From positions 1 through 46,379 of the IMG/VR virus record IMGVR_UViG_3300033571_004547: 46,379 nucleotides of DNA, one strand, 5' to 3'. Every line of letters begins with the position of its first letter. The stretch's first letter is position 1. Made by a program: the position numbers and the translations under genes. The notes under the pieces are model-generated. The model saw nothing but the letters and a program-made list of their open reading frames with translations, searched no databases and was not told where the DNA came from. This document shows positions 12,087 through 41,055 of the stretch, one piece after another. This stretch comes from a virus.

Positions 12087-12440
12087 ATGAAGAATGCTAG
12101 GCCTATCTGCTCAACTTGTAATAAAAATGTCTGTAGTATCAATTACAAACGAAAAAACATTACCCATTACCGCAGTATGTGCAATGAATGCGGGAAAAAG
12201 AAAAACAAAAAGAAATTGGGTAAACCTAACTGGGAAAAGTCAGGTTATAAAAAGAAGTCTATATGTGATGTTTGCGGGTTCAAGAGCATTTACCCCTCAC
12301 AAACTACGGTATATCACATAGACGGAGATTTAAAAAATATCAACTTCTCTAATCTAAGGACAATATGTCTGAACTGTGTTGAGGTCGTTAAAAGAAAACA
12401 AATAACATGGCGTAGGGGAGACCTACAAGTCGATTATTGA
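12087..12440 (+). CDS. HNH-like zinc-binding protein with degenerate active site
   Basis: 117 aa, basic. Cys pairs at C8/C11, C32/C35, C60/C63 and C94/C97 suggest zinc sites. The C-terminal half (CDVCG, VYHIDGDLKN, NLRTICLNCVE) follows the HNH pattern found in phage HNH proteins (DHIDGNHNN...NLQTLCANCH). The usual Asp before the first catalytic His is Tyr, and the His after the last Cys is Val98, so cleavage activity is doubtful. It is a lone rightward gene among leftward genes, driven by its own exact late promoter with no leader. Its end overlaps the dNMP kinase end by 18 nt, tail to tail. No SD is seen. Confidence 0.7.
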   Translation: MKNARPICSTCNKNVCSINYKRKNITHYRSMCNECGKKKNKKKLGKPNWEKSGYKKKSICDVCGFKSIYPSQTTVYHIDGDLKNINFSNLRTICLNCVEVVKRKQITWRRGDLQVDY

Positions 12441-20810: not shown

Positions 20811-21836
20811 TTAGCAAGGTGCTCCCCATTGTGGTCTTGTTGCGTTGCCGCCCGCCCAACTATTTGCATTTGTATCAAAATCGGTTGGTTTAGTTGGTAT
20901 AATTGCCACACACCAACTAGATAAGTCTTGATTGAATGTATTTGCATTATTGAACATAAAATTCATGTTAGTAACATTGCTAGTATTCCAATTACTGATA
21001 TCTTGATTGAATGCCTGTGCTCCATTAAACATATTTGTCATATTAGATACATTACTAGTAACCCAATTACCGATATTTTGATTGAATGCTGCTGCGTCCC
21101 TAAACATCGTACCCATGTTAGTAACATTACTGGTGTCCCAATTACCGATATTTTGATTAAAGGTAAACGCTAAACGGAACATATCACGCATATTAGTAAC
21201 ATTGCTAGTATTCCAATTACCGATATCTTGATTGAAAACACTTGCTTGTTGAAACATAAAACTCATATTAGCGACATTACTAACATTCCAACTACTCAAT
21301 GGTTGATTGAATGCGAAGGCTCCGTAAAATGAAGATGCCATATTTGTGATATTAGAAACATTCCAGTTTGATATATTAGCATCATTGATTAGGGGCGATC
21401 CATCAAATATACCTCTAATATTACTCACATTAGAGGGAATAGAATTTGGAACTATGGTTATATTATTGGAGCGGCATGCTCCTGCTAAATTTACTAACCC
21501 TATATTACCAAAAGTTGTTATTGATGTCATCCAATTAGAAAAAGACAAAGTTCCTACTGAGCCAAAATTTGGAACAGTGCCACTTATTTCTATTGTGTAG
21601 TTGCCTGCTGTAGCATAAGTTTTTTGTACATTAGCAGTTGTTCTATTACTAGTAGTATTTCCGTCACCCCAATCGATGTTGGCATTTAATCCAGTACCAC
21701 CAATATATACTGTAATTGTTTGTCCTGCGCTTACATTAGCAGTTAATACCATTGGATCTGATTCTGGGCCCGAAGATCCACTTTCCAATGTTATCCCACT
21801 ACCTATTGTTATTCCTGATCCTATAGTAATAGTCAT
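20811..21836 (-). CDS. DUF285/BspA-like repeat adhesin, copy 2
   Basis: 341 aa. The N-terminus is MTITIGSGITIGSGITLESG, a low-complexity stem. Residues 28-90 are PKD-like (IDWGDGNTT, KTYATAGNYTIEISG). Residues 130-310 hold repeats of about 25 aa with the pattern FNQ(D/N/P)-hxxW-N-x-S-N-V-x-N-M-xxMF, six FNQ copies. This is the DUF285 repeat known from Mycoplasma and bacterial surface proteins. The C-terminus is WAGGNATRPQWGAPC. It is a paralogue of the gene just upstream. A role as fibre tip or receptor-binding adhesin is inferred from the repeats and the fibre cassette. Confidence 0.8.
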   Translation of the reverse strand: MTITIGSGITIGSGITLESGSSGPESDPMVLTANVSAGQTITVYIGGTGLNANIDWGDGNTTSNRTTANVQKTYATAGNYTIEISGTVPNFGSVGTLSFSNWMTSITTFGNIGLVNLAGACRSNNITIVPNSIPSNVSNIRGIFDGSPLINDANISNWNVSNITNMASSFYGAFAFNQPLSSWNVSNVANMSFMFQQASVFNQDIGNWNTSNVTNMRDMFRLAFTFNQNIGNWDTSNVTNMGTMFRDAAAFNQNIGNWVTSNVSNMTNMFNGAQAFNQDISNWNTSNVTNMNFMFNNANTFNQDLSSWCVAIIPTKPTDFDTNANSWAGGNATRPQWGAPC

Positions 21837-22560
21837 GATTAATATCCTAATAATTTATTATGGGTTAGGGCAAGTACTCCATTGCGGTCTTGTTGCGTTG
21901 CCGCCTGTCCAAGCGTTTGCGCCATCATCAAATTCGAAAGGTTTTGATGCTATGTTTGATACACACCAGTTAGATAAATTTTGATTAAAAGATGTTGCAT
22001 TTTTGAATACTTGCGTCATGTTAGCGACATTTCCTGTTTTCCAATTTCCTATGTTTTGATTGAATGCGGTAGAATTATTAAACATTGAAAACATATTAGT
22101 GACTTTGCTAGTATTCCAATTAGCAATATTTTGATTAAATGATGAATTAAAGGCAAACAGATAACTCATATCAGTGACATTGCCAGTATCCCAAGTTACG
22201 ACATTTCCATTGAAGCCAGAAGGGAACATCCCAAACATGTTAGTGACCTTACTAGTATTCCAATTATTCAAGTCTTGGTTAAACACGGTTGCATCATTGA
22301 ACATACCCAACATATTACTGACATTACTTACATTCCAACTATTTATATTTTGGTTAAACACTCTTGCTCTTTCGAACATACTATTCATAAGTTGTACTTT
22401 ACTAACATTCCAATTGCCGATTGGTTGATTGAATTTTTCTGCATCGACAAACATAATACTCATAACGGTGACATTACTTGTATTCCAATTTGAAATGTCT
22501 TGATTGAATTGAAGTGCTCCATAGAACATATTTGCCATATCAGTAACATTACTTGTATTC
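20925..22560. repeat. 75-bp coding repeats of the two DUF285 genes
   Basis: Each repeat is 25 codons (about 75 bp) with near-identical cores such as GTAACATTACTAGTATTCCA on the plus strand. The two arrays lie at about 20925-21310 and 21975-22560. They could recombine within and between the genes. Confidence 0.75.
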
Positions 22561-23039
22561 CAAGTTACTATGTTAGAATCGTTAAATACATTAGCTATGT
22601 AGAACATGCTTCTTACAGTAGTCACCGTAGATGGAATATTATTTGGTACAACGGTAATGTTATTAGAACTACAAGCATTGGATAAATCTGTTAGCCCGAC
22701 ATTACCAAAATTAGTTATCGATGTTAACCATGACATATTTGCGGTACCAAATCCTGGAACAGTACCATTTATTACAATAGTATAATTACCTGCCGTAGTA
22801 TATGTTTTAGTTGGATTATCTGTAGTTCTACCAGTAGTAGTATTACCATCACCCCAATTGATAGTAGCGTTTAATCCAGTACCGCGAATCGGCAAGGTAA
22901 TAGTTTGATTATTAGTGGTTGTAACCGCAGTTAGTGTGAAATTACCAGTAGGCTCGGGTGGAGGTGGTGGAGTGGGTCCGCCTGATGTGATTGATATCCC
23001 GCTGCCTATTGTTATTCCTGGTCCTACATTTATAGTCAT
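21858..23039 (-). CDS. DUF285/BspA-like repeat adhesin, copy 1
   Basis: 393 aa, with the same plan as the downstream paralogue: a stem MTINVGPGITIGSGISI, a Pro-rich linker (PTPPPPPEPT), a PKD-like segment (TINWGDGNTTTGR) and about eight DUF285 repeats of 25 aa (NWNTSNVTNM, NMFSMF). One repeat is degenerate (FPSGFNGNVVTWDTG). The end is WTGGNATRPQWSTCPNP. AGGAG precedes the ATG. Two adjacent divergent copies fit duplication followed by variation in the ligand-binding repeats. Surface location is inferred. Confidence 0.8.
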   Translation of the reverse strand: MTINVGPGITIGSGISITSGGPTPPPPPEPTGNFTLTAVTTTNNQTITLPIRGTGLNATINWGDGNTTTGRTTDNPTKTYTTAGNYTIVINGTVPGFGTANMSWLTSITNFGNVGLTDLSNACSSNNITVVPNNIPSTVTTVRSMFYIANVFNDSNIVTWNTSNVTDMANMFYGALQFNQDISNWNTSNVTVMSIMFVDAEKFNQPIGNWNVSKVQLMNSMFERARVFNQNINSWNVSNVSNMLGMFNDATVFNQDLNNWNTSKVTNMFGMFPSGFNGNVVTWDTGNVTDMSYLFAFNSSFNQNIANWNTSKVTNMFSMFNNSTAFNQNIGNWKTGNVANMTQVFKNATSFNQNLSNWCVSNIASKPFEFDDGANAWTGGNATRPQWSTCPNP

Positions 23040-33667: not shown

Positions 33668-34149
33668 AATTTCTTTTTTCTACGGTTTATAGCCATTTCC
33701 AAACTGAGTTTTGCAACTTTTGTGTCATAGCATATACCATTTAAATGGTCATTTTCGTGCTGAAACACACGACTTATCAATCCACTAAAGTCTCTAACTA
33801 CTTCTTCACCTGTTAAAGTATAGTATTTGACTCTTATAAAATCGTGTCTTTTTACTTTCAACCATAGATTAGGAAAACTCAAACACCCCTCTTGACCAAC
33901 GATGTTTTTATTGTCACCTTCAAGTATTTCTGGGTTGATGCAGGTAATTAGTTTTTCACTATTACCCATGATAAACAGTCTTTTTAATATACCGACCTGA
34001 GGTGCCGCTAATCCTATACCATTGTTCTCAAACATGATTTTAGTCATGTGTTTGACTAATTCAGTGGGGTCTTTATCTACATTGAAGTCCCAGGGTTGGG
34101 CTATTTGTCTTAAACCCGTGTCATTTTCTTTTAGTAATTTAATGTCCAT
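33664..34149 (-). CDS. def: Peptide deformylase
   Basis: 161 aa. All three family motifs are intact: GIGLAAPQ (44-51), EGCLS (87-91, C89) and HENDH (131-135), which bind the catalytic metal and remove formyl groups from nascent proteins. It lacks the longer C-terminal extension of bacterial forms, as phage enzymes do. It overlaps the DnaE-like gene start region by 11 nt and is therefore coupled. Phage copies are thought to keep host translation products maturing during infection. Confidence 0.9.
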   Translation of the reverse strand: MDIKLLKENDTGLRQIAQPWDFNVDKDPTELVKHMTKIMFENNGIGLAAPQVGILKRLFIMGNSEKLITCINPEILEGDNKNIVGQEGCLSFPNLWLKVKRHDFIRVKYYTLTGEEVVRDFSGLISRVFQHENDHLNGICYDTKVAKLSLEMAINRRKKKF

Positions 34150-34714
34150 TTTCTTCTAATAAATTCATGTGTACTACTACAAGATGGCTATAAGCCAGGC
34201 TATGAGATTTTTTGAAAGTATATCCATTTTCATCTTTTTCCCATACAGTTTTGGATACTTCACTCCAAGGTAGTCCTATCAAGTGTTTTTTGCTAGGCCG
34301 TATGATAGCAAGAAACATAGCAAGTCTTGGTATAGTATTTATAGGTTCAGGCATCTTGCATATACTTTTATAGTGATTGTTTAGATGTACTAACTGCTCT
34401 ACAAAAGCCTTGTCTTTGAGTCTGTTCCAATTGGGTTCACGCATGAGTTCTAATAAATGCTGTTCGTTTTTTACTTCACTGTAAACATGAACATTCAACA
34501 AGTCTAGTTTGAAATAGCCCCTTTTATCTGCTTCTGAATAATCTATCGCTGCAATATCATGTATAGGGTCATAGGGTATATCTGTTACATGCACTCCTGT
34601 ATTATGTTTTCTTATTGGAGTTACATTACGCATAGCCGCAGGAATATGTTTGATACATGACAATAATTTGTCACGGTCAGGCAAATCAATATCAATGTCA
34701 GAATTTATCTTCAT
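34139..34714 (-). CDS. DnaE-like C-family polymerase fragment
   Basis: 191 aa. Segments read INSDIDIDLPDRDKLLSCIKHI, RKHNTGVHVTDIP, IDYSEADKRGYFKLDLLNVHVY, RLAMFLAIIRPSKKHLIG and YTFKKSHSLAYSHLVVVHMNLL. These resemble the DnaE/PolIII alpha active-site region (PDFDIDF-type loop, then RHxAG and SHAIAY-type helices) but without PHP, thumb or OB parts. It is probably not a full polymerase. The ATG overlaps the stop of the 75-aa gene (ATGA). Resemblance is by eye. Confidence 0.55.
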   Translation of the reverse strand: MKINSDIDIDLPDRDKLLSCIKHIPAAMRNVTPIRKHNTGVHVTDIPYDPIHDIAAIDYSEADKRGYFKLDLLNVHVYSEVKNEQHLLELMREPNWNRLKDKAFVEQLVHLNNHYKSICKMPEPINTIPRLAMFLAIIRPSKKHLIGLPWSEVSKTVWEKDENGYTFKKSHSLAYSHLVVVHMNLLEENGH

Positions 34715-34938
34715 ATATACTTCAATAAAAAGTAAGTCAGTTTAGATTCTTCTTCTGGGGGAATGTCTATGTAAAATTTTGCACTTATCTGATTTTCCCT
34801 GTCCGTAGATATGTTGTAATGAGTCCACCAGCGCACTCCCTCTTTTCCAAAATTATCTGTCAGATAATCTGTAATTTCTTTGAGTTCTTTGAGTTCTTTG
34901 ATTTCTTGTTTCTTTTGAGGAAAGTGAAAAATTTTCAT
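34711..34938 (-). CDS. Small C-terminal-LxxYI protein, array member 1
   Basis: 75 aa. Helical N-terminus (KKQEIKELKELKEITDYL), then NFGKEGVRWWTHYN and beta segments ending YFLLKYI. It is the last member of an array of small genes in this region that share an N-terminal helix, a central (W)xxxxG segment and a hydrophobic tail. Weak SD (AAGAG). The AAG codon (K) near the end takes the place of the array's AGG codon, and the next ATG overlaps its stop. Confidence 0.5.
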   Translation of the reverse strand: MKIFHFPQKKQEIKELKELKEITDYLTDNFGKEGVRWWTHYNISTDRENQISAKFYIDIPPEEESKLTYFLLKYI

Positions 34939-34944
34939 TATATA

Positions 34945-35229
34945 TTACTCTTTTTGTTTCTTATTATCTAGTCCTTTATATATGAAGTCAATTAATTCTA
35001 TGCTAGGATGTGGGTATATACCATATTTACTACCTATTTGGCCTGGTTCATTACTGTTTGTACAACTTAGCCTATGGTCAGTTGCTCTAGGACAACGCTT
35101 GTTGTCGCAAGTTGGGCAAACAATATAAGTTATTAGAGATTTTACAATCGTTAAACTCATATGTTTATCGTCGGGAGGAACCAATTGAACCGTTTCCTTA
35201 CTTAAACATTCATAACACCAGCAACTCAT
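34945..35229 (-). CDS. Cys-rich (zinc) protein
   Basis: 94 aa, start at the ATG 35229 with GAGGT 4 nt before it, overlapping the stop of its neighbour. CWCYEC near the N-terminus, CPTCDNKRC in the middle and CTNSNEPG suggest zinc binding. The C-terminus is helical (SIELIDFIYKGLDNKK). It has no LRW tail and is a different protein inserted in the array. Function unknown. Confidence 0.5.
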   Translation of the reverse strand: MSCWCYECLSKETVQLVPPDDKHMSLTIVKSLITYIVCPTCDNKRCPRATDHRLSCTNSNEPGQIGSKYGIYPHPSIELIDFIYKGLDNKKQKE

Positions 35230-35444
35230 GTATACCTCAGTATAAAACAAATAGCATCAGAATCATTCTCAAAAACTAAATCATATGTAAAACTTCCTAT
35301 GATACCTATCATTTGCCCGTTAGTTGTCTTATGAAATATTTCCTGTACTGCTTCCCAACTAGTAGTTCCTATATCATATTCGTTTGCCCAATTATTTAAG
35401 AAAGCGGGTATAGGTTTTTTCATATCAATAGTAATTTTAGTCAT
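35226..35444 (-). CDS. Small C-terminal-LRYT protein, array member 2
   Basis: 72 aa, start MTKITIDMKKPIPAFLNNWANEY at the ATG that overlaps the upstream stop. The end DAICFILRYT is the array tail with Tyr for Trp. The AGG codon of the R supplies the SD (GAGGT) of the next gene, 4 nt before its ATG. I do not recognise the fold. Confidence 0.55.
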   Translation of the reverse strand: MTKITIDMKKPIPAFLNNWANEYDIGTTSWEAVQEIFHKTTNGQMIGIIGSFTYDLVFENDSDAICFILRYT

Positions 35445-35770
35445 GACCACCTCAGTATAAACCAAGATTCCATTTCTTCTGTAAAGATATAGGTAGTGTC
35501 TAAAGACTCGTCATTCATAGAAAATTCATGAAATTTCCACATAGATATAGGCTGCTCTTCGACCCATGTTCTAATCTCATTCGAACGAACTTTGTATATA
35601 CAAAAGCCAGAAGACCCATCTATACCAATTCGTATCCAATCAACAGTTTTGACGAAAGGATTAGATATGGGTTGTACGCTGATTAGGTCTTTTGCAATGA
35701 TAGTAGGTGTTATCCTGCGTATTAACGACAACAATGTAGTATCAATTTTTTTATTACTATTGGTAGACAT
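35441..35770 (-). CDS. Small C-terminal-LRWS protein, array member 3
   Basis: 109 aa from MSTNSNKKIDTTLLSLI, the ATG overlapping the TAA of its neighbour (TAATG); the preceding GTG is part of the SD. Beta-rich with WIRIGIDGSSGFCIYKVRS and a tail MESWFILRWS. GAGG is 5 nt before the ATG. Array member; function unknown. Confidence 0.55.
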   Translation of the reverse strand: MSTNSNKKIDTTLLSLIRRITPTIIAKDLISVQPISNPFVKTVDWIRIGIDGSSGFCIYKVRSNEIRTWVEEQPISMWKFHEFSMNDESLDTTYIFTEEMESWFILRWS

Positions 35771-36078
35771 TACCACCTCAATTTAAATAATATAGCGTCT
35801 TTTTCGTTCTTGAAACACCAAGTTATACCTTTTGTATTTTCCCAATGATTAATATGACCCCAAATACCGTCGGGGTTATATAAATCCCATTCTTTTCCAA
35901 AATGGTCTTGACACCAGCCCAGTGCTGTCAATATTGGCATTTCATACGAAAGATTAACAGTGTAAGGTAGTGCGGCAACCATCTGTAGTTTCAGTAGTAT
36001 TTCTTTATCTATTTCTTCCCGCAAAAGCTCAGCAAAACTGTTTTCAACATCCCGCAATGTTGGTTTTTTGTCATTCAT
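35770..36078 (-). CDS. Small C-terminal-LRW protein, array member 4
   Basis: 102 aa from MNDKKPTLRDVENSF at the ATG 36078 (the GTG at 36084 lies in the SD). Helical start, then GWCQDHFGKEWDLYNPDGIWG and EKDAILFKLRW at the very end. The ATG overlaps the TGA of the upstream gene. Best example of the family's GWCxxxxG and FKLRW features; function unknown. Confidence 0.6.
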   Translation of the reverse strand: MNDKKPTLRDVENSFAELLREEIDKEILLKLQMVAALPYTVNLSYEMPILTALGWCQDHFGKEWDLYNPDGIWGHINHWENTKGITWCFKNEKDAILFKLRW

Positions 36079-36392
36079 AACCACCTTAACTTAAAAAGTA
36101 CGACGGCTTTCTGAAAACCGTCACTGACGGCTTCCTCATTTTCTAGACTTACTATATAACATTCTTTAATGTCATAATTTTCACAATTTTTCCAAGTCCT
36201 TCGTATTTGCCAGCCTTTGCCATAAACATGGTTATCGCCCTCTATATAGCGTTTAGTACTAGGACCAACATGCTCTACAAGCCAGTTAATTAATTCATTA
36301 ACATCCTTTACATTATTACGGTCAATAATAAAAGTATCAAAAGTATCATATTTAAGAGTCCATCTATTTCTATTATTTCTTCTGATATTCAT
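36075..36392 (-). CDS. Small C-terminal-LRWL protein, array member 5
   Basis: 105 aa from MNIRRNNRNRWTLKY at ATG 36392. VNELINWLVEHVGPSTKRY, then GKGWQIRRTW and tail KAVVLFKLRWL. AAGG is 5 nt before the ATG and the ATG overlaps the upstream stop. Function unknown. Confidence 0.6.
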   Translation of the reverse strand: MNIRRNNRNRWTLKYDTFDTFIIDRNNVKDVNELINWLVEHVGPSTKRYIEGDNHVYGKGWQIRRTWKNCENYDIKECYIVSLENEEAVSDGFQKAVVLFKLRWL

Positions 36393-36607
36393 AACCACCT
36401 TAACTTGAAAAGTATGATATCTTTTTCATTTGCTAAAGTTACTTTATGCCCGTACGGACTACCGTGAATACCCCAATATATACCCCAAGCAGTTCCAAAT
36501 TTATCCGTCTGCAAAGTTGGTGTGATTGTTGGCCCGATATATTCATGAACCCAATCAATTAATTGGTCAAAATGTGCTGAGTTCAATGGTATAAAAATAC
36601 TATTCAC
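36389..36607 (-). CDS. Small C-terminal-LRWL protein, array member 6
   Basis: 72 aa, GTG start at 36607 overlapping the exonuclease stop (GTGA). LIDWVHEYIGPTITPTL, AWGIYWGIHGSPYG and tail EKDIILFKLRWL. It is clearly a paralogue of members 4 and 5. Confidence 0.6.
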   Translation of the reverse strand: MNSIFIPLNSAHFDQLIDWVHEYIGPTITPTLQTDKFGTAWGIYWGIHGSPYGHKVTLANEKDIILFKLRWL

Positions 36608-37152
36608 TTATATAACCCTAATTTCCTATATGCTTCTTGTACTTTGATAGCCTGTCGTTCAGCATCCTCTACTGCTTTGTGAGTTGTCTTATATCCGCCG
36701 TCTTTCAATTTCACATTAGCAAGTTCATATAGTGTGCGAGTATCACGAACAGTATAGAAAGGCCAAGGTATAGGATTTGGTCTGTCGGTAAATACTTGAC
36801 GAAATGCTGTTTCTGCTACGACCACATCGAATGCTGCTCCATTGCTCCATACTGCTCGTCTGTTCCAGCCGAACTTATACAGTTTTTCAAGACATTCGCT
36901 AAAACTTATTCTATTATTATCTCCCATAGCCTCTTCTTGTGCTTCTAGACTTTGTTCGCTCCACCATCGTAATGTATCATCGTTTATGATACGGTTATAC
37001 TTTTCAGTCTGTTCTTCGATTGTGGGTCTTAGTTCTAATCTTTCTGCTATGCCATTTCCATATGGGTCAAATCTTACACATCCAATAGTAAGAATGACAC
37101 AATAAGGGCTTGTGTCTAGTGTTTCCATATCAACCATTATATCGTTTGCCAT
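36604..37152 (-). CDS. dexA: DEDDh 3'-5' exonuclease (DexA/Rv2179c-like)
   Basis: 182 aa. The DEDD core is visible: D8-x-E10 in IMVDMETL, an internal Asp in SNGAAFDVVVAE, and HKAVEDAERQA, the H...D pair of the DEDDh type. T4 DexA is 227 aa; the closer structural class is the Rv2179c-like 3'-5' exoribonuclease. It may trim phage DNA or RNA ends. It lies inside the small-protein array, 1 nt after the upstream gene. Confidence 0.75.
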   Translation of the reverse strand: MANDIMVDMETLDTSPYCVILTIGCVRFDPYGNGIAERLELRPTIEEQTEKYNRIINDDTLRWWSEQSLEAQEEAMGDNNRISFSECLEKLYKFGWNRRAVWSNGAAFDVVVAETAFRQVFTDRPNPIPWPFYTVRDTRTLYELANVKLKDGGYKTTHKAVEDAERQAIKVQEAYRKLGLYK

Positions 37153-37153
37153 A

Positions 37154-37408
37154 TTATTCCTGCCACATTTCCCACATTGTAATTAATCTACTAGACCAAA
37201 TAATCACTTCTAATGATTTGGTACTGCCACTAAAATCCCAACCATCACCCCTGTCACCAAAGTTTCTACGACACCAACTGATGACTTCTATAGGATCACC
37301 TTTAACTTTGAATATCAATTTTTTATGGTCACAATGATTTTTTCTTATCGGATCGACATAATCAATGACAGGTGTTAAACCATGAAACGGTGTAAAGTTA
37401 ATTGCCAT
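37154..37408 (-). CDS. Small protein, diverged array member 7
   Basis: 84 aa. KLIFKVKGDPIEVISWCRRNFGDRGDGWDFSG holds the array's central W-C-xxxx-G pattern, but the tail is LITMWEMWQE rather than LRW. CAGGAA precedes the next ATG, so the SD role of the C-terminus is taken by a different codon pair. GAGGT precedes its own ATG. Function unknown. Confidence 0.5.
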   Translation of the reverse strand: MAINFTPFHGLTPVIDYVDPIRKNHCDHKKLIFKVKGDPIEVISWCRRNFGDRGDGWDFSGSTKSLEVIIWSSRLITMWEMWQE

Positions 37409-37409
37409 A

Positions 37410-37757
37410 TTATCTATACCTCAATATAAGCCAAAATTCTAGTTTTTCACTAATAGCATATGTGAATGGTGTAAATGGATAAGTATCAATTTTTACCCAC
37501 ATGTCTTGTGGTTGAGTTTCTATCCATTCACTGACTACTTTCTTACAGTCAATGACTTTCCAAGTAGGGTTCGACGGTTCCTTCACTGTATCTACATACT
37601 GGTAGTTAGGTAACACATAATGTTTCTCTAGAGGAACATAAGGGCAATAAAAAAAGCCCACATCTATACCACCAGATTTTGCATGGTATTGTGATATCAC
37701 TATATCTTCTGTGTCACTAACAGTATTATCAATATATGTTCTTATTTTATTACTCAT
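37410..37757 (-). CDS. Small C-terminal-LRYR protein, array member 8
   Basis: 115 aa. Beta-rich (DIVISQYHAKSGGIDVGFFYC, KHYVLPNYQYVD), KVIDCKKVVSEWIETQPQDMWVKID and tail LEFWLILRYR. The end codes TTGAGGT, which is the SD of the next gene. Its ATG lies 8 nt inside the neighbour's end. Resembles member 3 in the EEQPISMW/ETQPQDMW segment. Confidence 0.55.
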   Translation of the reverse strand: MSNKIRTYIDNTVSDTEDIVISQYHAKSGGIDVGFFYCPYVPLEKHYVLPNYQYVDTVKEPSNPTWKVIDCKKVVSEWIETQPQDMWVKIDTYPFTPFTYAISEKLEFWLILRYR

Positions 37758-38022
37758 ACTTTAGAATATACACTAAAAATTTCTTTTCGTCAACTACCGT
37801 GTAATCATCACTCAACATACCATTCATTGTTTCTATGGGTCTAAGACCATATGTGTTTTCTAACCATTTCATGTATTCTCTGTGGTCATTATTGCCCGTT
37901 TCACTTGTAAATTCTAGTTTTAGTTTTCTTAGATTTTCCCAATACTTCATGCGAGCCTTTCTTTTGTCGATGTTTGGGTCATCATCATCGTAGTCTTGAA
38001 AATTGTTAGGAACTTTTACCAC
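37750..38022 (-). CDS. Small C-terminal-LKYE protein, array member 9
   Basis: 90 aa. GTG at 38022 with AGGA 8 nt upstream is preferred over the TTG at 38028. Acidic start (FQDYDDDDPNIDKRK), helical part (WENLRKLKLEFTSE), EYMKWLENTYGLRPIETM and tail KKFLVYILKYE. AAG replaces the AGG seen in other members. Function unknown. Confidence 0.5.
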   Translation of the reverse strand: MVKVPNNFQDYDDDDPNIDKRKARMKYWENLRKLKLEFTSETGNNDHREYMKWLENTYGLRPIETMNGMLSDDYTVVDEKKFLVYILKYE

Positions 38023-38024
38023 TG

Positions 38025-38714
38025 TCAATATCCTGCACTATCTAACATGCTTTTGATATCACTGGCTATATCATGGTATTTCTTGAATTTTATAGCGTAT
38101 ACTTCTGGATTTATATAATCGATGATCATCTTTTGTTGTGTGATATCTATTGTATCTAAAAATTTGATACCACTTTGACTATGATATAACATCCATGGGC
38201 TGATTTGCCCCTTTGTTATTTCATGACAAATTACATTCTTATTGCCATAGCGTAATACATCATTCGAAGGTATACCAAAAGTTGAAGATAGTTTAATTGT
38301 AGTTTCAATGCTTCTAGCGACTGCATCTAATGGGTCTTCGGTCTTTAGATACTCTACTATGAATTTTGTATAGTGTGTATCACGATTCCAATTGTCTATA
38401 CTGATTTTATTTTCTAACAACCAATCCAAATACCTCAATGGATTTAGTACACTACACTCTACACAATAATTACCAAACTTGACAAATGCAGTGTAATATG
38501 AACTTTTAGCAAAGTCCATATATTCTTTCTTTTTCTTGTTAGTGTTCTTTTTGTAAAAATGAATCCATGACAAAAAGCCAATTCTATTGCTTGGTTTGTC
38601 TTTATCTTGAAATCTGCGCTTGGTTTCGCAAATGTGTTTTATTAAACTAGTTTCACGAACAAAGTGTTGTTTGCAGAATTCACATACATGTTCACTCACC
38701 GTATTTTTGTTCAT
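38025..38714 (-). CDS. Conserved phage protein with N-terminal C2H2-like finger
   Basis: 229 aa from MNKNTVSEHVCEFC; ATGs at 38732 and 38729 are in the same frame and no strong SD selects one. CEFC...KHIC forms a C2H2/C3H-type finger at the N-terminus (residues 11-30). The rest is helical (FAKSSYYTAFVKFGNYC, RYLDWLLENK, YHDIASDIKSMLD). I associate it with a widely conserved protein of marine T4-like phages; function is not known to me. It overlaps the gp62-like gene. Confidence 0.6.
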   Translation of the reverse strand: MNKNTVSEHVCEFCKQHFVRETSLIKHICETKRRFQDKDKPSNRIGFLSWIHFYKKNTNKKKKEYMDFAKSSYYTAFVKFGNYCVECSVLNPLRYLDWLLENKISIDNWNRDTHYTKFIVEYLKTEDPLDAVARSIETTIKLSSTFGIPSNDVLRYGNKNVICHEITKGQISPWMLYHSQSGIKFLDTIDITQQKMIIDYINPEVYAIKFKKYHDIASDIKSMLDSAGY

Positions 38715-39733: not shown

Positions 39734-40234
39734 TTAAAATACTTGATTGTAGTCCACAATCTCACAATTTCTGCTTATTTCCTTTACAAAATACACACAT
39801 CTTGGTTTGTCATTATCATCGATAGGAACACACAAGAACTGCCCATTACGCATTCTAGGTGCATACCATGTAACATCGTGATATACATCTACTATCTCAA
39901 TAGGCAAAAATGTAGGATTGAATGAGTTAAGTGGATTATATTCAAACGCACTAAAACCTCTATCATTCAAACTACTTAATGGCACGGTTTCTAAATCGCC
40001 GTGATCTTTCTCGCCTATCAACACTTGCCAATCTAATGGCATCTTGATTGTTTTGTCTCCTATCTTCAACACTAATGCTGCTGAATTGAAACTTTCAAGA
40101 AAAATCAGTGGTATAAAATGATAATCAACATTGTCTGGGTTGCTGTTATCAAGTATAGCAAAATGCAATTCGTCTATTTCTTCTGGAAGTGTTTCTAGAT
40201 TATATGTTTTATTTTCTACGGTTAGTATGCGAAT
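39734..40234 (-). CDS. Conserved unknown protein with probable AUU start
   Basis: 166 aa if it starts at ATT 40234. AAGGAG stands 7 nt before that ATT, and the N-terminus then reads (M)RILTVENKTYNLETLPEEID, which looks like a genuine beginning. Without it the first usable codon is TTG 40168 with no SD. Segments: FIPLIFLESFNSAALVLKIGDKTIKMPLDWQVLIGEK and TWYAPRMRNGQFLCVPID. An upstream homing endonuclease insertion may have altered the start. Function unknown. Confidence 0.55.
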   Translation of the reverse strand: MRILTVENKTYNLETLPEEIDELHFAILDNSNPDNVDYHFIPLIFLESFNSAALVLKIGDKTIKMPLDWQVLIGEKDHGDLETVPLSSLNDRGFSAFEYNPLNSFNPTFLPIEIVDVYHDVTWYAPRMRNGQFLCVPIDDNDKPRCVYFVKEISRNCEIVDYNQVF

Positions 40235-40247
40235 TTTCGTTCTCCTT

Positions 40248-40255
40248 GATAAATA
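40248..40255 (+). promoter_or_regulatory. Late promoter of the homing endonuclease
   Basis: Plus strand GATAAATA; start near 40261. It overlaps the RBS region of the opposite-strand 166-aa gene. Confidence 0.7.
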
Positions 40256-40275
40256 AGTTTTATATAGGAATTTTT

Positions 40276-41055
40276 ATGTTTTTACCTAATAAATACACAG
40301 ATTGTTATAATAGCATTATCGAGCGGGCAAAGTCAAGAACTCTAACAAAAAAAGTTTATACCGAAAATCACCACATTTTACCTAAAAGTTTAGGTGGTTC
40401 TAATTCTAAAGATAATTTAGTCCGTCTGACTGCCCGCGAACATTTTATATGCCACAGATTGTTAGTTAGAATGGTAGAAGACAAAGCAAAATACCAAATG
40501 ATTAAAGCAGCAGAAATGATGACCAAAAAAAATAGTTGGCAGAATAGATATAAGATTACTTCAAGAACATATGAAAGATTAAAAAAAGAAGCATCTTTGG
40601 CTATGTCTATACTGACTAAAGGAAAACCTAAACATACGCCTCATTCTAAAAAAATTCTTTCCGAAAAAGCTACTAATAGAGTTTCTGGTTTTAAAGGAAA
40701 AACATTTAGCAAAGAAATTAGACTTCTCCTCGCACTCCGACGCAGTAAACCTTGTATTTCTCCCGCAGGGGAAAGATTTGGCAGCACTAAAGAAGCAGGG
40801 CAGGCATACGGTATTACTGGTGCAGGTATTCGTGCTTTAATTCAATCAGGAAAAAAAGGGTGGAAATACGAAAGAGAAGAAGACCAGCGTATAGTAGAAT
40901 TAAAGAGAAATTCAAAAATTAAACCTATTAAAAAACCACAAAGTACTGAACATATATCAAAACGCATAGCATCCAGAAAAAAGAATGGTCATTATAAAAA
41001 TAGAGAGACAACTATTAAAAAAATGAAAGTTGCGGCTAAATTGAGATATCAGTAG
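40276..41055 (+). CDS. Free-standing HNH homing endonuclease
   Basis: 259 aa, start MFLPNKYTDCYN at ATG 40276 (AGGAA 5 nt before; the longer frame is untranslated). HNH motif: ENHHILPKSLGGSNSKDNLVR (H32/H33, N47) with EHFICHRLL (H56, H60). Basic linker with SKKILSEKA (NUMOD3-like) and SPAGERFGSTKEAGQAYGITG (about 160-190, NUMOD1-like helix-turn-helix). These are the DNA-binding repeats of phage homing endonucleases. It is opposite to its neighbours and squeezed between them, 7 nt overlapping uvsW: a mobile intergenic element. Confidence 0.85.
   Translation: MFLPNKYTDCYNSIIERAKSRTLTKKVYTENHHILPKSLGGSNSKDNLVRLTAREHFICHRLLVRMVEDKAKYQMIKAAEMMTKKNSWQNRYKITSRTYERLKKEASLAMSILTKGKPKHTPHSKKILSEKATNRVSGFKGKTFSKEIRLLLALRRSKPCISPAGERFGSTKEAGQAYGITGAGIRALIQSGKKGWKYEREEDQRIVELKRNSKIKPIKKPQSTEHISKRIASRKKNGHYKNRETTIKKMKVAAKLRYQ

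Follow-up and report, generated by a model that had tools for sequence, protein, structure and literature searches.

Overlapping gene pairs are usually translationally coupled, with a contribution of the Shine-Dalgarno (SD) sequence that varies (Huber et al. 2019, PMC6728339), and coupling in which the SD lies inside the upstream gene is already known. In T4-type phages, the major capsid protein gp23 is known for another reason: its Gol peptide is the element of the EF-Tu/Lit exclusion (PMC3014915), and capsid proteins, gp23 included, trigger the bacterial defences CapRel and CmdTAC (PMC9712102, PMC11618068), the contacts of CapRel being predicted with the spine helix and the P-domain sheet (PMC9712102). 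Here we analyze an array of small genes that bears on both subjects, found on the minus strand (34711-38028) of a 46-kb IMG/VR virus record (IMGVR_UViG_3300033571_004547, 46,379 nucleotides, hereafter “the window”). The virus is an uncultured T4-like phage of bacteria, and the window carries T4-type genes for tail sheath, helicase gp41, uvsW and clamp loader.

The array and the described termination-reinitiation coupling (PMC6728339) are alike in having ATGA or TAATG overlaps, an SD inside the upstream gene, at its 3' end, and a contribution of the SD that varies. Two differences set the array apart: its SD or ATG sits in a conserved protein motif of a large family, and one codon of this motif switches between an SD mode and a start-codon mode. 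What is new is that the SD lies within a protein motif which the whole family shares and which has two coding modes, along with the mosaic use of capsid-protein segments. From sequence comparison, we consider it probable that these small proteins share a common module, that their C-terminal tail is kept by the protein while its codons serve as the next gene's start signal, and that gp23-derived or Walker-A-like N-termini are exchanged in front of the module.

Eight genes of the array have an LRW-like C-terminal tail, as had been described, and with few exceptions each overlaps its downstream neighbour. In all six Arg tails the codon is AGG, which makes up 6.4% of Arg codons in the long minus-strand open reading frames (ORFs) of the window (p = 7e-8), and the two Lys tails both use AAG, again in agreement with the preliminary description. 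From upstream to downstream on the minus strand, the tails are YILKYE (AAG, 37750-38028), LILRYR (AGG, 37410-37757), FKLRWL (TTA AGG TGG, 72 residues, 36389-36607), a second FKLRWL (AGG, 36075-36392), FKLRW (AGG, 35770-36078), FILRWS (AGG, 35441-35770), FILRYT (AGG, 35226-35444) and FLLKYI (AAG, 34711-34938). The junction at 36390-36401 illustrates the dual coding: AAGG (36398-36401), within the Leu-Arg codons, lies 5 nucleotides before the ATG of the next gene (36390-36392). At all five window ATGA or TAATG junctions with Arg, AAGG or GAGG is found at this distance, the spacing first proposed for the W-ending members; the exception is the LILRYR gene, in which the next ATG lies 1 nucleotide past the TAA, without overlap and with an SD spacing of 10. 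Similarly, the stop was said to overlap the next start as ATGA or TAATG, and this is so at most junctions (ATGA for the second FKLRWL, FILRWS and FILRYT genes and for FLLKYI, which runs into gene 34139-34714; TAATG for FKLRW). Besides the LILRYR gene, the YILKYE gene departs from it with an 8-nucleotide overlap (ATGAGTAA); the start of that gene is ambiguous (TTG at 38028 or GTG at 38022). The first FKLRWL gene has a GTG start overlapping the stop of an exonuclease-like gene, and its protein is essentially a bare module.

A direct search with a window tail protein gave no relatives. As the window proteins are too diverged for such a search, relatives were fetched through the neighbouring core genes, namely the exonuclease and uvsW, and later with the tail proteins of the relatives themselves, which yielded a sample of 340 related loci (4.5 Mb). 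The C-terminal motif, defined as [hydrophobic]-x-L-[RK]-[WYF]-x(0-2)-stop, is present in 1004 ORFs of these loci, versus 21, 29 and 52 for letter-permuted motifs. The tail proteins fall into 234 sense-strand clusters at 60% identity, and the arrays, at one location, contain 2 to about 17 genes, whose ends are similar within one phage. The preliminary description had called for a profile search of the family: after the terminal five to six residues were cut off, 141 of 229 clusters could still be joined by an iterated profile, and no shuffled sequence reached the threshold. Homology thus spans the whole module and not the tail alone. AlphaFold predicts the module as strand-helix-strand-strand-helix, with the motif at the end of the last helix (mean pLDDT, the predicted local confidence, 84), and gives the same core for the FILRWS window protein, in which the gp23 piece has low confidence. 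This order of elements is common to ferredoxin-like and RRM-like folds; the ferredoxin-like beta-alpha-beta-beta-alpha-beta fold, however, has a last strand that the predicted module lacks, and comparison with the PDB gave only weak, unspecific ferredoxin-like matches (best Z 5.4), which pointed to no function. Viral structure matches were uncharacterised proteins of uncultured phages.

The module belongs to no family described in Pfam, PHROGs or NCBIfam: 140 members scanned gave only gp23 matches and scattered weak ones. When four family bodies were compared by tblastn with 50,697 records of cultured phages, none had a match; a fifth query matched many phages solely at their gp23 genes, owing to its gp23 piece. 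One subfamily, searched for in bacterial and archaeal genomes, gave nothing. Judged by sequence and predicted fold, the arrays are made of paralogous, strongly diverged small phage proteins with a common C-terminal module. The suggestion that members are diverged duplicates holds for this module and not for the N-termini, which are mosaic.

We then asked how the tail codons are chosen, a tail being counted as coupled when a downstream start lies within 12 nucleotides, GTG- and TTG-started neighbours included. By this definition 220 of the 234 clusters are coupled. AGG encodes the Arg of 103 of the 173 coupled Arg tails, that is 60% versus a background of 8.1% (p~1e-66); AGA accounts for 30%, and CGT for 4/173, or 2% versus 36% in the background. 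In 84 of the 103 AGG tails, the Leu codon ahead of AGG is TTG, giving GAGGTGG. The predicted pairing with the anti-SD has a median of -8.9 kcal/mol in AGG tails, 98% of which are at or below -5, versus medians of -1.5 to -2.7 kcal/mol in non-AGG tails and -3.9 kcal/mol in 419 control overlapping pairs of the same loci. A strong SD is thus confined to AGG tails (103/220 coupled) and is weak or absent in the others, in line with the earlier remark that the SD weakens where R is replaced by K; AAG is not preferred among Lys tails (12/47). A second mode, which the preliminary description missed, consists of an A-ending codon before TGG: NNA-TGG builds an ATG within the motif, in the reading frame of the gene that follows, and 19 pairs have no other ATG nearby, nor a GTG or TTG that could replace it. 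T- or C-ending Arg codons, useless in both modes, are found in 8 of the 173 coupled tails. Taken together, the AGG bias, the SD energies and the rarity of T/C-ending codons indicate that the codons have been tuned to the needs of initiation. These genomes show no enrichment of T4-type late promoters (TATAAATA), which therefore give no indication of early or late expression.

Tail residues, in turn, bear marks of selection on the protein. In three Arg tails that no coupled gene follows, the codons are CGT, CGA and CGC (L051:1354-1677, L216:6878-7135 and L293:8878-9105), CGN codons at such ends being what the preliminary description had named as counter-evidence; the difference in Arg codons between uncoupled and coupled tails gives p = 0.0015, or 0.012 when two doubtful AGG cases are counted. 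R and K, and W, Y and F, interchange in tails, though the SD arises only from R encoded by AGG, and the tail Phe codon varies synonymously (TTT 157, TTC 28). The aromatic residue is followed by exactly one residue in 212 of the 220 coupled tails and in 10 of the 11 uncoupled or near tails; since this ending is common to both, the end position is also a feature of the protein. Where it had been left open whether coupling, protein function or both maintain the tail, the sequences favour both: the amino acids appear to be kept by protein function and the codons by coupling.

Exchangeable N-termini, likewise absent from the preliminary description, are the second component. Two window proteins match gp23 in Pfam and PHROGs (PF07068, phrog_138), and the same search over whole records revealed such pieces in many related phages. 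A profile built from the gp23 sequences of these phages and T4 gp23 detected 15 distinct pieces among 779 tail-bearing small ORFs; among 15,940 tail-less small ORFs its sole match was a full gp23 truncated where its contig ends, and shuffled copies gave none. When 133 core protein families of these phages were screened, only gp23 (five) and gp41 helicase (one protein, two related profiles) matched, with zero matches in shuffled or reversed controls. Three regions of gp23 recur: residues 56-99, the N-arm, aligned with T4 gp23 96-130 and covering the Gol region (PMC3014915); helix 190-216, for which the group profile gives E 9.5e-5, the best of 133; and residues 307-350. In T4 gp23, the three segments correspond to about 94-130, 285-310 and 420-460, that is, in terms of the capsid protein, to the N-arm, a long helix and a late beta region. 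They are homologous to gp23, but make up no full-length HK97-type protein: a stretch of 25-50 residues is joined to a module unrelated to gp23 in tail proteins of 105-140 residues. The full gp23 of 398 residues is encoded separately in longer records of related phages; in one of these (G048), intact gp23 is at 283417 and pieces are at 201018 and 13510. In the window, residues 9-40 of the FILRWS protein are the N-arm/Gol-region segment (gp23 56-88), followed by a beta-alpha-beta-beta-alpha body; residues 1-49 of the LILRYR protein are the 307-350 segment, followed by the body W-I-E-T-Q-P..MW; and the FKLRW protein has an N-terminal helix similar to gp23 190-216 (DVEnsfAELLREEIDKEILLKL).

The same bodies are found behind different N-termini. 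The body ‘WIExQPxxMWK’ follows a gp23 N-arm in the FILRWS window gene and in L222, L121 and L359, and follows gp23 307-350 in the LILRYR window gene, a Walker-A piece in L273 and another start in L315-L318; the body ‘KYKFSRAKWY’ is preceded in at least six phages by a gp23 N-arm and in at least eight by a Walker-A piece, and elsewhere by little. Many members have a short N-terminus or none. L318 and L130 have almost the same body (nonsynonymous divergence dN 0.03, synonymous divergence dS 0.34) and a much more diverged gp23 piece (dN 0.30, dS 3.3), which indicates a separate history for the piece. Between L364 and L365, purifying selection acts on both gp23 piece (dN 0.08, dS 0.86) and body (dN 0.09, dS 0.63). 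For the Walker-A group, gp41 is best by profile comparison (E 8e-7, the top four all gp41). A terminase origin of this P-loop piece, which has weak phrog_2 matches, is less likely, as the profile comparison favours gp41 helicase. Four other N-terminal groups (MIKKR, KSGxSW, QNET and ELKxxG) matched no core phage family.

Some further observations concern these genes. A KYKFSRAKW-body gene (L384:851-1226, minus-strand coordinates) has ‘DGAYYAPYIP’ in its N-terminus, which by eye resembles gp23 ~340-350, below the profile threshold, and would be a possible 307-350 piece. Four genes (L315:3627-3971, L316:7654-7995, L317:9004-9354 and L318:7556-7900) carry an N-terminal ‘LETINRLLKLFGGKVQEQATEKFTKPGDPFSPF’ where L359 has the gp23 N-arm. 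In L359 (1498-1854), a gp23 N-arm tail gene stands outside the array, between epimerase-like and DegT-like aminotransferase-type genes, and is coupled on both sides. Finally, five phages have a lone tail gene ending LK[YF][EK] outside the array (G004:C1:93706-93957, G007:C1:76409-76753, G009:C1:21068-21346, G011:C1:114890-115162 and L359:298-534), which overlaps the start of a MNILVTGG-type gene (NAD-dependent epimerase-like).

How could these features be joined? The last helix of the module is predicted to end in F-x-L-[R/K]-[W/Y/F]-x-stop, residues probably retained because the folded protein needs them. As nearly every gene overlaps the next, the tail codons are probably also selected as an initiation signal, either as Leu-AGG-TGG, an SD placed about 5 nucleotides before the next ATG, or as NNA-TGG, an in-frame ATG start, and the fixed single residue past the aromatic holds the SD spacing. 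In front of the body come exchangeable N-terminal pieces, three of them gp23 segments and one Walker-A-like. Given that overlapping pairs are usually coupled, with a variable share for the SD (PMC6728339), we infer that ribosomes couple translation at these junctions. Several points weigh against this proposal. About half of the coupled tails have no strong SD, so that the array does not depend on one. Clean uncoupled Arg tails number only three, gene starts are computational, SD energies are predictions made without the host's own 16S rRNA, and the clusters are not fully independent phylogenetically. On the capsid side, the helix 190-216 assignment depends on group profiles, single sequences matching weakly (E 0.004), and as the recruited parts of gp23 count among its best conserved, detection favours them.

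As to the role of the proteins, the likeliest one in our view, though far more tentative, is that they would be host- or competitor-facing binders that display conserved phage peptides, for example decoys for capsid-sensing defences. Since capsid proteins trigger CapRel and CmdTAC, and Lit through Gol, host sensors could plausibly target the recruited gp23 regions. The region corresponding to Gol, the most conserved one in the first quarter of gp23 (PMC3014915), is included in the N-arm piece; Gol, however, lies in gp23 itself, whereas the piece rides on separate small proteins, for which EF-Tu binding is conceivable. CapRel and CmdTAC are host systems, whereas the array proteins are phage-encoded, and our literature search found no phage decoy built of capsid pieces. 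A more specific version, which we hold with a little less confidence still, is a hyper-diversifying “bait” array, in which a constant globular module with the LRW tail, carrying swapped peptides of the phage's own conserved proteins (three major-capsid regions and a helicase-like Walker-A piece), would saturate or block host sensors of these proteins before capsid protein accumulates; the array would be expressed as one chain because each tail supplies the start signal of its neighbour.

Two alternatives to a defence decoy are about equally improbable in our view. According to the first, proteins with gp23 pieces would disturb or tune capsid assembly, of their own or of a competing phage, through gp23 contact surfaces. 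The nature of the segments (N-arm, long helix and late beta region) and the purifying selection are compatible with this, which nevertheless leaves unexplained the Walker-A piece at the same place in other phages. According to the second, gp23 and P-loop pieces would be accidental captures, mere N-terminal leaders, as the short or absent N-termini of many members and the low AlphaFold confidence on the gp23 piece might suggest; random capture is difficult to reconcile with a screen in which gp23 and gp41 alone matched among 133 core families, and with three gp23 segments that recur in frame, under purifying selection and on different bodies.

The remaining alternatives concern the tail. Near-identical gene ends (TTTATATTGAGGTGGTCATGA) could be short recombination joints for cassette shuffling, which would hold the DNA similar. 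Arrays of very different size at one location, the likeness of gene ends within a phage and the reassortment of N-terminal pieces and bodies would all fit. We nonetheless find this explanation quite unlikely, because F, L and R vary synonymously and R/K and W/Y/F are exchanged, which leaves no DNA constancy beyond the initiation signal, and because the swaps observed are intragenic, upstream of the body and not at the tail. That the tail is conserved only as the ribosome-binding site of the next gene, its protein sequence being a by-product, is very improbable: the extreme AGG bias, strong SD energies and fixed spacing are what it predicts, but the uncoupled CGN and AAA tails largely refute it, R/K and W/Y/F swaps preserve chemistry yet abolish the SD, the F and L positions vary synonymously, and homology extends across the module, with the tail inside a predicted helix. 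Least credible of all is a purely protein feature with incidental AGG codons, which the clear protein-level conservation would allow and which the AGG and CGT biases, together with the return of non-AGG codons in the absence of coupling, contradict unless AGG has some other role at the DNA level.

Three genes of the array region lack a tail. A family-like gene ending in MWEMWQE (37154-37408, minus strand), the ninth next to the eight tail genes, is probably a member that lost the LRW tail; ahead of the next gene it has CAGGAA, an alternative SD-like site. That next gene (36604-37152, minus strand) encodes a 3'-5' exonuclease-like protein resembling phage genes annotated as exodeoxyribonuclease VIII, and interrupts the array. 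A Cys-rich gene outside the family (34945-35229, minus strand) is started by the FILRYT tail. Elsewhere in the window, two adjacent minus-strand genes (20811-23039) contain repeats of the ‘TSNVTNMxxMFxxAxxFNQ’ type, which we take to be BspA/DUF285-like surface repeats. Two HNH-type endonuclease-like ORFs on the plus strand, opposite most genes (12087-12440 and 40189-41055), are probable homing endonucleases. Region 1-2025 is antisense to an ORF of GPV-rich repeats, and its minus strand probably encodes a collagen-like protein.

The array offers a natural case in which one short stretch encodes a conserved protein end while also signalling the start of the following gene, and its more than 200 diverged clusters let codon choice separate the two pressures. 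It also brings to light an unnamed and very diverse protein family, found in uncultured T4-like phages, in which parts of the major capsid protein have been recruited again and again. As the capsid protein triggers Lit/Gol, CapRel and CmdTAC, a prediction follows, namely that phages may carry capsid fragments as decoys or interferers. If this is true, one could read from the array which phage protein parts are sensed by hosts.

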